From Armatimonadota bacterium (GTDB lineage Bacteria; Armatimonadota; Fimbriimonadia; Fimbriimonadales; Fimbriimonadaceae), in assembly GCA_018268315.1 (NCBI GenBank), contig JAFDWU010000001.1, positions 225,280 to 289,279 on the forward strand: 64,000 nt of DNA. Reading direction: 5' to 3'. The notes beneath the pieces are model-generated. The model did no database searches. It was not told the origin of the DNA and saw nothing but the letters and a program-made list of their open reading frames with translations. Below, one piece after another: positions 53,903 to 60,383 of the stretch. The position numbers were made by a program, and so were the translations under genes. Positions within the stretch are counted from its first letter, which is position 1, and every line of letters begins with the position of its first letter.

Positions 53903-54796
53903 ATGCAAATATCAATCGTCCGAACTTCCCTCGCTATCGTCGGCGCTCTTAGCCTAGCAGTCGCTACAAGAGCGATTGTCCCGGCCAATGCCCAAAGCGG
54001 CAAAGCCAAGGCAATTGATTACGCCCAGGTCAACCTGGTTTTGCGAAACAACTATTGCAATGACTGCCACGTGATGAGCGCAGGCGCAATGGGCGGTCTC
54101 CACCTGGGAACCCGCGAAGGCATGTTGAAAGGAGGACATAGCGGACCTGCGGCTGTCCCGGGCAATGCGGACGCAAGCCTTATCATCAAGGCTCTTACCG
54201 GCGCTGAGGGTGTGCGCAAGATGCCTCCTCAGGGCGGCTCGATGAAGCCGGAAGACATCGAAGTAATTCGGGAATGGATCAATCAGGGGGCAAAGCCAAG
54301 TGTCTGTAGCCAAGCACTCAGCGATTTTTACACAGCCGCGTTTGCCCAGAAGTGGGACGATGCATGGGCGGCATGCCAAAAGATCGCCAGCCAAAAGATC
54401 GATGGCGTGCGCACGGACTTTCTAGCAGCACGCTTAAGCCTTTCGGTATTGCTCCACCGGAACGACGAGGAGAACTTCTACAAGGAAGCCGCAATCGCAG
54501 TTAAGATTCGGCCGGTAAACGCAGGACTCTTCGACACGATCGCCTCTGGCATCGTCAATCCAGAAAGCAAGTTCAAACACCGCGACACTAAGCTCGCTTT
54601 GCAAGCTGCCGAACTCGCGGTCAAGGATTCGGACCGAAAATCTGGCGCAATCTTGAACACCCTTGCTTGGGCGTATTACTGGAGAGGTGATCGGGCCAAG
54701 GCCATTCAAACCGCCAACGAAGCCTTAAAATGCCACGACGCGGTTGGGGGCACAAAAGACGAAATCAACGCCAGCCTTAAGAAGTTCGGGGGCTAG
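53903..54796 (+). CDS. Planctomycete-type cytochrome c (PSCyt1-like) with helical-repeat C terminus
   Basis: A 297-residue exported protein with a signal peptide (to about ANA-30). One c-type haem motif, C52-N-D-C55-H56, is followed by the likely Met ligand in KMPPQGG (M107), the PSCyt1 pattern. The C-terminal 160 residues contain paired helices like TPR units (LNTLAWAYYWRGDRAKAIQT). Probably a periplasmic electron carrier or sensor. Confidence 0.8.
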   Translation: MQISIVRTSLAIVGALSLAVATRAIVPANAQSGKAKAIDYAQVNLVLRNNYCNDCHVMSAGAMGGLHLGTREGMLKGGHSGPAAVPGNADASLIIKALTGAEGVRKMPPQGGSMKPEDIEVIREWINQGAKPSVCSQALSDFYTAAFAQKWDDAWAACQKIASQKIDGVRTDFLAARLSLSVLLHRNDEENFYKEAAIAVKIRPVNAGLFDTIASGIVNPESKFKHRDTKLALQAAELAVKDSDRKSGAILNTLAWAYYWRGDRAKAIQTANEALKCHDAVGGTKDEINASLKKFGG

Positions 54797-54797
54797 G

Positions 54798-55343
54798 CTA
54801 GTCTGTGGGATAGATGATTGAATGCCAGTGAAGCGGGATTCCCTCTTCCGCCTGGCGCTCGTTAGCCCACTCAGAAAGCTCTTTGAGACGACGGTTGAGT
54901 TCCTTGAAATCATCCGGGGAAAGGCGCATGTTTAGCCGCTGGACGGCTATTAGCCCAAACAGCGAGGGATCAGTTTCGCCTCGCTCCGAAGCGGCGGCGT
55001 AACCGCGCATCGCGCCCCGCATTCCTGCCAAGACCGTCTTTCGATTCAACCTTGCGACCTCGGTTGAGGTGCGCGGGTCGGGGAGGATTACCCGCTTGGC
55101 GGTAGGCGCGAATACCGTTTCCGGCTTGCGCGCAGTGGGCCTGCGCATGACGGCGTGAATCAGCCCAACTTTCTCCAGAGCCATGAGGTGATAGTGGACC
55201 GACTCTGGACTGCGTCCAAGAGCTTCTCCAACCTCGCGGGCAGACCCTTGCCCGAGAGCTCGCAGACGCACGTAGACCTCGCTCCGCGTTGGCGAGGCGA
55301 GGACAGCAAGTTGCTCGGAAGTTAATGTTGCACCTTCTGGCAT
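54798..55343 (-). CDS. Winged-helix transcriptional regulator, ArsR-like
   Basis: A 181-residue protein. LAVLASPTRSEVYVRLRALG and SAREVGEALGRSPESVHYHLMALEKVGLI form an ArsR-type helix-turn-helix and wing. A C-terminal helical domain follows (residues about 95-170). No ArsR metal-binding Cys pair is evident. It is divergent from the serine-hydrolase triplet with 52 bp between starts, so it is the obvious candidate regulator and may autoregulate. Confidence 0.85.
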   Translation of the reverse strand: MPEGATLTSEQLAVLASPTRSEVYVRLRALGQGSAREVGEALGRSPESVHYHLMALEKVGLIHAVMRRPTARKPETVFAPTAKRVILPDPRTSTEVARLNRKTVLAGMRGAMRGYAAASERGETDPSLFGLIAVQRLNMRLSPDDFKELNRRLKELSEWANERQAEEGIPLHWHSIIYPTD

Positions 55344-55395
55344 AAAACTAAAAAGAGTGGAACTTTCTTATTTATTGACGTGTTTGGCTAATAAA

Positions 55396-56946
55396 ATGAG
55401 ACCAGGTTTTAGAGGGACGAATCATTCGACGATCGTTAGTGTTACCACGTTGGCGTTGGCAAGCCTTGGGTGCCAGGCATCAAACCTGCCGATTTCCTCG
55501 GCAAACGCTCCAGCCGCAAAAGCTGTTGCCGTGAGCCAGCCTCAGTCGAATGAGGCGGCGCAGAAATTGGTAAGCGATTTCATCGAGGCACTCAATTCAA
55601 AGGATGAGGCGAAGATGCGGGCGTTTATTGAAAGCCGATGCTCCTCAGCTACTCCGGTGGAAACTCGGCTAGGGAGAATGATGCCGGTGGCAAAGGAGCA
55701 CGCCCCGTTCAAGCTGGTGCGCTTTGGAACGACGACTGCAACCGAAATTCGGGCGTTGGTAACGGACAACTCTGGCGAAGAGTTGGGCTTCATCGTGCGG
55801 ATTACTCTTGACGCAGAGCCAAAGATTGACGCGGTGGGGATCGGAGGACCTGAGGATGTAGACGCCACCCCTCCTGCGAGCCACGCGAATTGGACTAACC
55901 TGCCGGACCTAGCCGCCGATATCGCGAAAGAAACCCAATCTCCGGCGATGGCGATTGCCATGTTACGCGACGGCAAGCTAGAGCAAACCGTTACCGGCGT
56001 GAGGGAGATTGGCAAGCCTGACAAGGTCGGCATCGACGAGCCTTGGAGCATCGGCTCGATTGGCAAGCCGCTCTGTTCAACCCTTATTGGCAAGCTGATC
56101 GATATGGGCAAGCTGAGGTTTGACACGACCCTTAAGGAGGCGCTGCCAGGATATCCGATGAAGCCAGCCTATGAGAATTTAACTCTTGCGCAAGTGATGC
56201 ATCATCGAGCCGGTTTGCCGCAGGATTTGGGTTTCCGAAGGCCGATGGTGGAACGAATTGTCGGTAACGCGAAGACCCCGGAGGAAATTCGCGCGAATTA
56301 TGTGAAAGACATCTTTTCGCGCGATGTGATCGCAAAGCCTGATGAGCGGTTCGCCTACTCGAACGCGGACTATGCGGTGCTCGCTCACATCATTGAGCTC
56401 AAGATGGGCATGCCTTACGAAGAAGTCATGCGAGAGCTGCTTTTCAAGCCGCTTGGGCTTACCCACAGCTTCATTGGTTCAGCAACGTATCCGAAGGAGA
56501 TGCCGAGCGGACACATTCCCGGACCGAACGGCCTTGAAGTAGCGAACTTCGGCGGTCCACTTGAGGCGATGGTGGCAGGCGCGGGCGGCGGGCTGTACAT
56601 GTCGGTTGGCGACCTAGTGAAGTTTGGCGAGATGCATATGAAGGGAATGCAGGGGCAGGATGGCTATCTGACGGCAGCCACAGTTGCGCGGCTGCATCAA
56701 GGCGTGCAGGAAGATCCGGCTGCGCCCAGGCAATATGCTTGCGGCTGGGGCATTCAGGCAGCTCCCGGTATCCAGCAATGGCATGGGCACAACGGCTCGA
56801 ACGGGACGTTCCGCGCTGAGCTTGCGATCTTTCCGAAGTCCAACTTGGTTGTAGTAGCGATTGTGAATCGCGGTGGCGAAGCCGAACCGTCGCCGGGATT
56901 CCAGGCAGTGACCGCGATTGCCTCCAAGTACGCTCCAGCTAAGTAA
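55396..56946 (+). CDS. Serine hydrolase (beta-lactamase family), tandem copy 1
   Basis: A 516-residue exported protein. The ATG at 55396 opens a signal peptide ending ASLGC; an upstream GTG at 55357 is less likely. An N-terminal NTF2-like domain (about 55-135) contains ALNSKDEAKMRAFIES. The C-terminal hydrolase has intact motifs: S221-x-x-K224 (SIGK), Y321-x-N323 (YSN) and HNG (QQWHGHNGSNG). Most similar to copy 3. Substrate unknown; esterase or peptidase rather than true beta-lactamase is likely. Confidence 0.9.
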   Translation: MRPGFRGTNHSTIVSVTTLALASLGCQASNLPISSANAPAAKAVAVSQPQSNEAAQKLVSDFIEALNSKDEAKMRAFIESRCSSATPVETRLGRMMPVAKEHAPFKLVRFGTTTATEIRALVTDNSGEELGFIVRITLDAEPKIDAVGIGGPEDVDATPPASHANWTNLPDLAADIAKETQSPAMAIAMLRDGKLEQTVTGVREIGKPDKVGIDEPWSIGSIGKPLCSTLIGKLIDMGKLRFDTTLKEALPGYPMKPAYENLTLAQVMHHRAGLPQDLGFRRPMVERIVGNAKTPEEIRANYVKDIFSRDVIAKPDERFAYSNADYAVLAHIIELKMGMPYEEVMRELLFKPLGLTHSFIGSATYPKEMPSGHIPGPNGLEVANFGGPLEAMVAGAGGGLYMSVGDLVKFGEMHMKGMQGQDGYLTAATVARLHQGVQEDPAAPRQYACGWGIQAAPGIQQWHGHNGSNGTFRAELAIFPKSNLVVVAIVNRGGEAEPSPGFQAVTAIASKYAPAK

Positions 56947-56959
56947 GGCTGCGCCAAAC

Positions 56960-56992
56960 ATGGGCCGCAGCGGCCTGCTGCCTGCGGCCCAT
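56960..56992 (+). terminator. Hairpin after copy 1, probable terminator
   Basis: A perfect 11-bp GC-rich stem (56960-56970 with 56982-56992), 14 bp after the stop of copy 1, followed by a weak T-run (ATCTGTTGTT). It would separate transcription of copy 1 from copy 2. Confidence 0.5.
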
Positions 56993-57081
56993 ATCTGTTG
57001 TTGGAGTTACAGTTGGGGGATACACCCGCTCAACCCTTTTAACTGGGTTACCTTCATCTGTCCGAGCGGAGTCTTAGGGGC

Positions 57082-58554
57082 ATGCGGGGACTCCCTTTCA
57101 TATTTCTGGCGGCGGTCGGCGTTGCCCTTTCTGGCTGCGGACAACAAATTCCTGGCGCGATTCCGGGCGATCCAGCGCAAGGGGCGGTGAACGACTTCCT
57201 CTCTGCGCTGAACACCAAGGATGAGCAGAAGATTCGCGCATTCGTTGATTCGGAATGCACCCCAAGCGTTCCTCCCGAGATACGTATGAACCGCATGATG
57301 CCTCTGGCATTACAGCACGCTCCTTTCCGGGTCGTGAAGTTTGGACTGCGGACCCCAACCTCGATCCGCGCGCTTTTCAAGACGGTTGAAGACGAGCCCA
57401 ATACCGTTGTGATGACCCTAACGGAAGGACCCAAGCCAAGGATCGTTAAGATTTTGGTAGGCGATCCGGGCCTGATGAGACCGCCCAAGGATTACGCGGA
57501 ATGGACGGATATACAGGCGCTGACAGATGAGATCAGTCGGGACTCGCAGTCCCCGGCGATGGGTGTTGCCGTTATCCAGGACGGAAGATTGGAGATCGCG
57601 GTTTCGGGTGTGCGCGAGTTGAACAAGCCAAACAAGGTTGATATCGACTCCGCTTGGAGCATTGGCGCGATCGGGGAATGCCTTTGCGACACCTTGATAG
57701 GAAAGCTGATCGAAAGCGGGAAGCTCAACTGGGACACCACTCTGCGGGAAGCGCTGCCCGGCTTTCCGATGCGGCCGGGGTACGAGAAGGCGACGATTGA
57801 ACAAGTGATGCACCAGCGAGCCGGATTTCCGGTTGAGCCGGGCGTTCAAGAAGCTGAAATCAAGCAATATTCGGCCGGCGCAAAGTCTCCGCAGGAGATT
57901 CGATCCAAGTACGTCGCGGTAGTGCTTGGCCGGGCTCCTATTGCCACGCCAGGAACTGAGTTCCGCTTCTCGCGAGCGACCTACGCGGTTCTGGTGAAGA
58001 TCGTGGAGGCCAGGGTAGGCAGACCTTACGAAGAGATTCTTCGCGATCAGCTGTTCAAGCCGCTTGGTCTCGATAGCAGCTTTATTGGCGGGGAGGGGCT
58101 GCCGACATCTGCCCCCCTTGGGCACTTTCCGGGGCACGATTGGCTGGAGCCAGTCCCTGCCTTATCGCAGGGAGTCATCGCCGTTGGAAATGAGACCGTA
58201 ATTCGAATGTCGGCTGCGGACCTTGCTCACTTCGCCGAACTGCACTTAGAGGGGTTGAATGGTAAGGACGGATATCTGAAGGCATCGACAATCTCCCGTC
58301 TTCACAGAGGGCAGAACGAAGCTCCCGACATTTCCCAGCAGTATGCCTGCGGATGGACTATCCAAGGCGCACAGGGGATTCAGGAATGGCATGGGTGCAC
58401 CGATTCGGGATCGGCATTCCACGCACAGGTTGCCATCTTCCCGGAATCGAACTTGGTGGTGGTCGCGATTACTAACCGAGGCGGCGAGATCGATCCTTCC
58501 CCAACGTTCCAGGCTGTGACCGCGATTGGCGCTAGATACGCCTCAGCGAAGTAA
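57082..58554 (+). CDS. Serine hydrolase-like lipoprotein, tandem copy 2, predicted pseudoenzyme
   Basis: A 490-residue protein with a clear lipoprotein signal (MRGLPFIFLAAVGVALSGC, LSGC lipobox, Cys19) and the same two-domain layout as its neighbours. All three catalytic motifs are lost. SIGK is AIGE (A196, E199; codons GCG at 57667 and GAA at 57676). The YSN motif is FSR (F296-S-R298). HNG is CTD (C439-T-D441). The frame is otherwise intact, so selection seems to have kept a non-catalytic protein. It may be a binding or scaffold subunit; this is inference. Confidence 0.88.
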   Translation: MRGLPFIFLAAVGVALSGCGQQIPGAIPGDPAQGAVNDFLSALNTKDEQKIRAFVDSECTPSVPPEIRMNRMMPLALQHAPFRVVKFGLRTPTSIRALFKTVEDEPNTVVMTLTEGPKPRIVKILVGDPGLMRPPKDYAEWTDIQALTDEISRDSQSPAMGVAVIQDGRLEIAVSGVRELNKPNKVDIDSAWSIGAIGECLCDTLIGKLIESGKLNWDTTLREALPGFPMRPGYEKATIEQVMHQRAGFPVEPGVQEAEIKQYSAGAKSPQEIRSKYVAVVLGRAPIATPGTEFRFSRATYAVLVKIVEARVGRPYEEILRDQLFKPLGLDSSFIGGEGLPTSAPLGHFPGHDWLEPVPALSQGVIAVGNETVIRMSAADLAHFAELHLEGLNGKDGYLKASTISRLHRGQNEAPDISQQYACGWTIQGAQGIQEWHGCTDSGSAFHAQVAIFPESNLVVVAITNRGGEIDPSPTFQAVTAIGARYASAK

Positions 58555-58680
58555 CCGCAACCGAGCCCGATACCAAATCAAGCGCCGTCGGCGTTCACGC
58601 TTTCTTGTTGACGGAGGACCGCTCGATAATAAATAAAAATATAGAAACTATTTTTGTTATTGCTTTGTTCAAATATTTTA

Positions 58681-60255
58681 ATGAGGCTAAATCACAGAAA
58701 ACTCAAAACACTGAACCTATTAGGTCTGGGCGGCTTTGCTCTTTGCAGCATGGTCTCCCAAGCGGCGCCAACCACCATCGTGTTGGGGAACCGCCACTCG
58801 GACCCCTCACTCTTCGTTAAGACAGCCGACTCACGAGAAGCGGCGCAGAAGCTCGCTAAGGGCTTTGTCGACACCCTGAACACCAAAGACCCGGCAAAGA
58901 TGCGGGCATTCATCTTGAGCCACTGCACAACGGCCACACCAGTTGAAACGCGCCTGCAACGAATGATGTCGGTTACGAATCAATTTGGGCCATTTAAGGT
59001 TGTGCGCTTTGGGACAACCACCGATTCAGAAGTTCGTGCATTGGTGGCTGATCGCAATGGCGACAACCAGACGTTCATCGTCCGCATCACGCCTGGCGCT
59101 GACCCTAAAATTGTAAGCGTTTCCATCACCAGTCCGGACCAAGTGGACGCACCACCCGCTGTTAGCCATTCAAATTGGACGACCTTGTCCGGCTTGGCTA
59201 CGGATATTGCTAAGGAAACGCGATCTCCCGCCATGGCGATCGCAATGAGCCGTAACGGAAAGCTTGAGCAGACGGTCACCGGAGTCCGGGAGCTTGGCAA
59301 GAACGACAAAGTCGGCGTCGATGAGCCGTTTAGCATCGGCTCCATCGGCAAGCCGCTTTGTTCAACGCTGATTGGCAAGTTGATTGAGGCGGGCATGCTC
59401 CGCTTTGACACAACCCTGAAGGAAGCATTGCCGGGATATCCCATGAAGCCGGCCTACGAGAATCTAACCCTTGAACAGGTGATGCAACACCGTGCGGGAC
59501 TACCGCAAGACCTTGGATTCCCCCCGGGCGTTGTTCAAAGAATTGTCGGGGATTCCACGGATCCCATTGAAATCCGGTCGAAGTACATCAAAGATATCCT
59601 GTCGCGAGACGTGATTGCGAAGCCAAATGAGCGGTTCGCATATTCGAACGCCGACTACGCAGTACTGTCCCACATCATTGAACTCAAGCTAGGGATTCCT
59701 TATGAGGAAGCGCTAAGAACTCTTCTTTTCCAGCCGCTGGGCCTAAACCACAGCTACATTGGCTCGGCCACTTTTCCGAAAGAAAGGCCCAGCGGACATG
59801 TGCCGGGGCCAAACGGGCTCACGGTTAGGAATTACATCGGTCTAACTGACAATCAATCCAGCAACAAGCTAGAGACAATGGTGGCCGGCGCTGGGGCTGG
59901 CATTTATATGTCAGTTGCTGACCTGGTGCGTTTCGGCGAAATGCACATGAAGGGGCTTCAGGGAGAGGACGGCTATCTGAAAGCCTCAACCATAGCTCGT
60001 CTTCATCAGGGCGTTCACGAAGATCCCGGCGCTACACGGGAGTATGCCTGCGGCTGGGGAATTCAAACCAGTCCTGGTATCCAGCAATGGCATGGGCACA
60101 ACGGCTCGGACGGAACGTTCGTATCCGACCTCGCCATCTTCCCGAAGTCAAATCTGGTCATCGTAGCGATTGTTAACCGCGGCGGTCAAACAGATCCTTC
60201 GCCAGGATTCCAAGCGATTACTGCAATCGCGTCCAAGTATGCGCCCGCTAAGTAA
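58681..60255 (+). CDS. Serine hydrolase (beta-lactamase family), tandem copy 3
   Basis: A 524-residue exported protein. The ATG at 58681 is followed by a signal peptide ending SQAA. The NTF2-like domain (TLNTKDPAKMRAFILSH) and hydrolase domain parallel copy 1, with intact S221-x-x-K224, YSN and HNG motifs. A region rich in A and T, with an inverted repeat (AAAAATA/TATTTTT, 58635-58655), lies just upstream and may hold its promoter or operator. Confidence 0.9.
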   Translation: MRLNHRKLKTLNLLGLGGFALCSMVSQAAPTTIVLGNRHSDPSLFVKTADSREAAQKLAKGFVDTLNTKDPAKMRAFILSHCTTATPVETRLQRMMSVTNQFGPFKVVRFGTTTDSEVRALVADRNGDNQTFIVRITPGADPKIVSVSITSPDQVDAPPAVSHSNWTTLSGLATDIAKETRSPAMAIAMSRNGKLEQTVTGVRELGKNDKVGVDEPFSIGSIGKPLCSTLIGKLIEAGMLRFDTTLKEALPGYPMKPAYENLTLEQVMQHRAGLPQDLGFPPGVVQRIVGDSTDPIEIRSKYIKDILSRDVIAKPNERFAYSNADYAVLSHIIELKLGIPYEEALRTLLFQPLGLNHSYIGSATFPKERPSGHVPGPNGLTVRNYIGLTDNQSSNKLETMVAGAGAGIYMSVADLVRFGEMHMKGLQGEDGYLKASTIARLHQGVHEDPGATREYACGWGIQTSPGIQQWHGHNGSDGTFVSDLAIFPKSNLVIVAIVNRGGQTDPSPGFQAITAIASKYAPAK

Positions 60256-60269
60256 TCGTTGAAGTATTT

Positions 60270-60299
60270 AGGTCGAGCTGGCTCCTGCCACCTCGGCCT
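60270..60299 (+). terminator. Hairpin after copy 3, possible terminator
   Basis: An 8-bp stem with one G-U pair (60270-60277 with 60292-60299), 15 bp past the stop, followed by TTATGCATTTTG. The T-run is weak. Confidence 0.4.
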
Positions 60300-60325
60300 T
60301 ATGCATTTTGAGTTCATTAAGCCTG

Positions 60326-60383
60326 TGTTATTAACGTTAACAATGCGTTAATAATCCATCGGTATTGTCCTGTGTTAATAACA
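60326..60383. promoter_or_regulatory. Cluster of GTTAATAA half-sites upstream of the porin gene
   Basis: TTATTAACG (60328-60336) is inverted relative to CGTTAATAA (60346-60354), and a third copy TGTTAATAACA lies at 60373-60383. All are in the leader of the porin-like gene. The spacing of about 18 and 27 bp suggests protein binding to one or two DNA faces. Confidence 0.4.

Follow-up and report, generated by a model that had tools for sequence, protein, structure and literature searches.

Sequence and model evidence for a maintained pseudoenzyme in a tandem trio of S12-fold hydrolases from the family Fimbriimonadaceae

The middle gene of a tandem trio of hydrolase genes is well supported as encoding a maintained pseudoenzyme, as had been proposed in the original prediction. 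This reading is supported by the distribution of changes among conserved sites, a neutral simulation, a confident structural model and a second conserved clade of motif-less proteins. The three genes (copies 1, 2 and 3) lie head to tail on one strand of the window, the whole analysed stretch of 64,000 nucleotides, within a host genome of 2.8 Mb (9 contigs, 100% complete). All three products matched PF00144, for which the cut-off is 27 bits (Table 1). Copy 1 shared 71% identity with copy 3 and 49% with copy 2. The motif assignments of the original prediction were reproduced in the alignment: copies 1 and 3 carried SxxK, YxN and HxG as SIGK/YSN/HNG, and copy 2 had AIGE, FSR and CTD at the aligned places. 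The frame of copy 2 was intact (zero stops, zero frameshifts), as were its scaffold and its lipoprotein signal. By fold, Pfam score and the SxxK, YxN and third motifs, copies 1 and 3 belong to S12 (PF00144) and, judging from their sequences, are exported serine hydrolases of the S12 type. Copy 2 lacked the motifs of an active S12 member; its fold was kept and its catalytic residues were lost. Motif loss was not routine in this genome, since its other S12 proteins kept SxxK. A clear, canonical lipobox (LSGC) was read only in copy 2. The lipobox of copy 1 was weak (SLGC), and the N-terminus of copy 3, whose most probable start codon is the ATG at 58681, resembled an ordinary signal peptide.

Table 1. 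Positions of the features at the locus (window numbering) and of the related gene pairs in four other genomes (numbering of each locus)
Feature	Position	Strand	Details
HTH_20 (ArsR-type winged-helix) regulator	54798..55343	-	divergent from copy 1; Pfam HTH_20 E 5e-8
Operator/promoter-like element before copy 1, AACTTTCTTATTTATTG	55361..55377	+	one of two matches in the 2.8 Mb genome
Copy 1, intact NTF2-like + S12/class C-fold serine hydrolase	55396..56946	+	SIGK/YSN/HNG; PF00144 162.9 bits
Stem-loop between copies 1 and 2	56957..57000	+	MFE -28.8 for 56950-57010, z -2.2
Copy 2, lipoprotein, well-supported pseudoenzyme	57082..58554	+	AIGE/FSR/CTD; PF00144 128.8 bits
Same element before copy 3, AACTATTTTTGTTATTG	58646..58662	+	the only other match genome-wide
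Copy 3, intact NTF2-like + S12/class C-fold serine hydrolase	58681..60255	+	SIGK/YSN/HNG; PF00144 158.5 bits
Stem-loop after copy 3	60269..60304	+	MFE -23.5 for 60256-60330, z -2.9
Dead S12-fold + beta-helix gene pair	L106:6583-10223		beta-helix PF13229; weak GH141/NosD matches
Dead S12-fold + beta-helix gene pair	L107:4682-8304		beta-helix PF13229; weak GH141/NosD matches
Dead S12-fold + beta-helix gene pair	L108:4858-8384		beta-helix PF13229; weak GH141/NosD matches
Dead S12-fold + beta-helix gene pair	L109:4854-8195		beta-helix PF13229; weak GH141/NosD matches

Copy 2 was modelled with AF2 in the same fold as the intact copies (pLDDT 87.6, pTM 0.83; copy 1, pLDDT 89.3). Structural matches of the model were an FmtA-like protein, ClbP, the octameric Pyrococcus homologue (2qmi), R61 and AmpC. 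The S12 fold of copy 1 was backed by AF2 together with Foldseek.

The changes in copy 2 were concentrated in its motifs. Of the 51 sites that did not vary among 15 intact rows of the alignment, copy 2 was altered at 7/7 motif sites and 4/44 others (D277E, A396N, G470S and L476V; Fisher 2.9e-6). D277 was altered in every dead protein, which makes it a probable further residue of the active site. Pairwise dN/dS was discarded as a test because synonymous sites were saturated, and an internal clock was used instead, in which the neutral decay of copy 1 was simulated with the lost motif as the clock. At 0.5–1.0 substitutions per site, all seven motif residues were lost in 3–26% of runs, with 13–17 stops and 19–38% retention of the other sites expected at that point; the lower end (3% of runs) corresponded to about 13 stops and 38% of the other sites retained. 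Copy 2 had 0 stops and retained 91% (40/44) of the other invariant sites, a pattern that the neutral simulation never yielded. Selection therefore acted either on the scaffold once the motif had been lost or on the motif change itself, and both cases imply a function. The persistence of copy 2 since the loss is thus estimated by a clock that assumes neutral drift of the seven motif changes; if these were adaptive, the time since the loss could be short, and a function for copy 2 would follow as well. Purifying selection after the loss was indicated for copy 2 by the internal clock and more directly for the second clade of dead proteins described below. Four-fold sites were 31–35% identical between the copies, compared with 27–29% expected by composition; such near-random values indicate that the duplicates are old. 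The GC3 of copy 2 was 0.64, like that of copy 1.

The pocket of copy 2 was altered at a pair of positions whose equivalents in AmpC, K67 and N152, touch. Positions 224 and 323 (copy 1 numbering) were K and N in all intact rows, E and R in copy 2, and K–D (three proteins) or Q–N (one protein) in the second dead clade. From these few sequences, the pattern suggests that a salt bridge or a neutral pair may have taken the place of a catalytic contact. In copy 2, K224E and N323R may form a salt bridge in place of the catalytic K–N contact. Cysteines at positions 225 and 465 were unique to copy 2 among all rows, and a C225–C465 disulfide is possible.

Members of the subfamily were searched for in 85 genomes of the same family, then in 113 of the class and then in 291 of the phylum (Armatimonadota). 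Full-length members comprised 27 genes in 18 genomes, all within the window's own family, Fimbriimonadaceae. The motifs were intact in 22 rows, copies 1 and 3 included, and S221, K224, D277, Y321, N323, H465, N466 and G467 were invariant in all of these. Of two scans of a named genome collection, one gave no relatives of the trio and the other gave 15 intact relatives with 32–53% identity, none of them close; they were MAGs, mostly labelled Armatimonadetes, Fimbriimonas or Fimbriimonadaceae. Neither a second tandem trio nor an orthologue of copy 2 was found in the 291 Armatimonadota genomes, a sample without a second species of the window's genus. The search for the same trio that had been proposed at the outset therefore left the tandem arrangement unique to the window's genome within this sample. 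Pseudoenzymes of this subfamily, in contrast, were not unique to that genome.

A second set of subfamily members without the motifs was present in four genomes from a different genus (G018, G020, G021 and G023), with the readings AIGK/LDD/SIS, AIGK/-TD/FTG, GAGK/DSD/SIS and SIGQ/QAN/SAG. These proteins were placed in a monophyletic clade (100/100) far from copy 2, with saturated synonymous sites, 38–56% amino acid identity and zero stops. One of the four (L061) also lacked the N-terminal domain. In 4/4 genomes the gene of a right-handed beta-helix protein (about 680 residues) was located directly 3' of the dead gene on the same strand. All four genomes encoded intact paralogues elsewhere, and the dead genes were on other contigs than those paralogues. 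A common origin for the dead copies was rejected, because the tree forces two. Its starred branches mark two independent motif losses, and by this phylogeny motif loss is recurrent in the subfamily, having occurred at least twice. We tentatively suggest, without giving it the weight of the reading of copy 2 itself, that dead copies were made and kept at least twice and that the S12 fold was repeatedly used as an exported non-catalytic binding module, with the 224/323 contact replaced by new pairs and with one case paired with a beta-helix gene. Among about 40 sampled relatives, the only further dead-looking S12 protein was a homologue in G022 (L042:1474-2556, minus strand) with TGVQ for SxxK and HNL for HxG, possibly a third dead lineage.

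The original prediction had tentatively placed copy 2 and its active neighbours under the divergent winged-helix regulator, which fits copies 1 and 3, with their common upstream element, but not copy 2, which lacked the element and followed a stem-loop. The 17-base element AACTNTNTTNNTTATTG had exactly two matches genome-wide, before copies 1 and 3, and none before copy 2; its reversed control had zero matches genome-wide. The pattern was derived from those two sites, so that the two matches arise by construction; independent support came from its absence elsewhere in the genome and from similar sequence in five other genomes (G012, G059, G049, G044 and G019), in which counterparts were located between regulator and hydrolase. 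In G001 and G002 the regulator was present with no clear element, and a relaxed form of the element was not found beside hydrolases without the regulator. The upstream regions of copies 1 and 3 could be aligned (score 40, 0/500 shuffles as good), and that of copy 2 aligned with neither. The best cross-genome matches of the regulator were divergently adjacent to the same hydrolase (G059, G012, G049, G001, G019, G002 and G044). Based on the element distribution, the synteny of the regulator and the absence of the relaxed form, copies 1 and 3 are probably under the regulator's control, and copy 2 is probably outside it or reached only via read-through past the stem-loop between copies 1 and 2. 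The three genes thus probably do not form one jointly controlled system, which corrects the earlier idea. That stem-loop was rejected as a classical terminator, as it had no T-run. The stem-loop after copy 3 probably closes the cluster. Searches of the locus for sigma-70 promoters and classical terminators gave nothing above chance. Elsewhere in the window, a gene for a Planctomycete-type cytochrome c domain (PSCyt1) protein (53903-54796) ended 2 bases from the convergent regulator gene. Contig 5 of the window's own genome carried a second divergent pair (110973-111875, minus strand, and 112094-112546, plus strand), made up of an S12 hydrolase gene and a regulator gene of the same HTH type.

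In the tree, copy 2 was placed outside copies 1 and 3 (99/97); 10 informative sites favoured this branching order and 0 favoured either alternative. Its branch length was 0.89, compared with 0.34 and 0.54 for its sisters. The ancestral unit would have been a two-gene module of an ArsR-type regulator and a divergent exported hydrolase with an operator-like element between them; the arrangement follows from the genome comparison, and we infer that the regulator binds the element. The ancestral hydrolase would have combined an N-terminal NTF2-like domain with an S12/class C beta-lactamase-fold domain, and would have been triplicated in tandem long ago in the window's lineage. In the simplest account, a first duplication was followed by a second, which placed a copy of the regulated active gene, together with its element, on the opposite flank of copy 2. 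Copies 1 and 3 still carry both the element and the residues needed for catalysis. Having split off first, copy 2 would have lost the nucleophile, the base and the third-motif residues, and its element was either lost or never present. Purifying selection, as the calculation above supports, would have preserved its fold and kept its lipoprotein signal intact. It would act non-catalytically from the membrane through the remodelled pocket, the NTF2-like domain or both, and the ligand or partner it binds would be related to the one that copies 1 and 3 use. Taken as a whole, this explanation of an old triplication, a dead copy 2 kept by selection and a non-catalytic role at the membrane appears probable to us.

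Alternatively, copy 2 could be an obligate structural subunit or regulator of copy 1, copy 3 or both, like the pseudoenzymes of known enzyme pairs. The copies are tandem paralogues at 49% identity, and some relatives of the same fold are oligomeric, including 2qmi, the octameric homologue from Pyrococcus, and the filaments of LACTB. Precedents are the metformin hydrolase MetCa/MetCb, whose active and dead paralogues are encoded by paired genes in one cluster and form a complex (PMC11271267), and trypanosome AdoMetDC, with which the dead paralogue prozyme forms a complex (PMC5201418). Like the trio, both systems keep active and dead paralogues in one genome, and MetCa/MetCb also pairs them in one cluster. 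However, both have other folds, and complex formation of their kind is not favoured here by the separate upstream elements. The element common to copies 1 and 3 is missing at copy 2, in every other genome the active enzyme has no dead partner next to it, and the dead genes of the second clade and their active paralogues lie on different contigs. Given the separate elements and the intact relatives without a dead neighbour, a stoichiometric complex with copies 1 and 3 is the less favoured option, and we consider the subunit role rather unlikely.

It is improbable that copy 2 is at an early stage of decay, having recently lost its active site, and will disappear. Its branch is longer than those of its sisters, it had no orthologue in the 291 Armatimonadota genomes and its upstream element is missing, all of which would fit decay; yet the alteration of seven motif residues was accompanied by retention of 40/44 other invariant sites, the frame, the lipobox and GC3, and the neutral simulation never reproduced this combination. 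Even less probable is a re-tooled enzyme that uses different residues for catalysis, such as the new cysteines (225 and 465), E224 or D467. The two cysteines found only in copy 2 lie beside motif 1 and in motif 3, but they could equally form a disulfide. The altered loop (model residues 344–346 and around) was poorly modelled, with a block pLDDT of about 51, unlike an ordered new site, and we know of no chemistry in an S12 fold without the motif-1 serine. Most likely, copy 2 is anchored in the membrane and acts without catalysis as a binding or partner protein.

Copy 2 fits the definition of the MEROPS 'non-peptidase homologues', a category for homologues without catalytic residues that is used, for example, in PMC7804941. 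The category is purely descriptive and implies no function; in the present case there is evidence of selection, of recurrence and of an altered upstream element. S12-fold proteins that lack the catalytic residues appear in database counts but are seldom assigned a function. In a literature search that covered mostly non-subscription papers, none was found on such S12-fold pseudoenzymes or on Fimbriimonadaceae hydrolases. With two losses, intact sisters, a conserved regulator and a beta-helix partner gene, the subfamily offers a tractable test of the non-catalytic role of the S12 fold.

The fold of the trio is common to MEROPS S12/PF00144 (R61 DD-peptidase, AmpC, ClbP, FmtA-like, alkaline D-peptidase and IS11 esterase), and SxxK/YxN/HxG is common to the known members and copies 1 and 3. 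In contrast, solved members shared only about 15–24% identity with the trio, which additionally has an N-terminal domain and, in copy 2, lacks all motifs. The NCBIfam bla_class_C cut-off was missed by all three copies (42.9–54.9 bits versus 415), and they failed every NCBIfam cut-off for beta-lactamases and PBPs. The N-terminal domain drew no Pfam match, and a permissive cut-off did not change this. Models of this domain in copies 1 and 2 contained three helices and four strands in an order that is compatible with the NTF2-like label without proving it. On contig 4 of the window's genome (L003:875-2439), the gene of a free-standing protein that resembles the N-terminal domain overlapped a separate S12 hydrolase gene by four bases, as if the fused architecture had been split into two genes.
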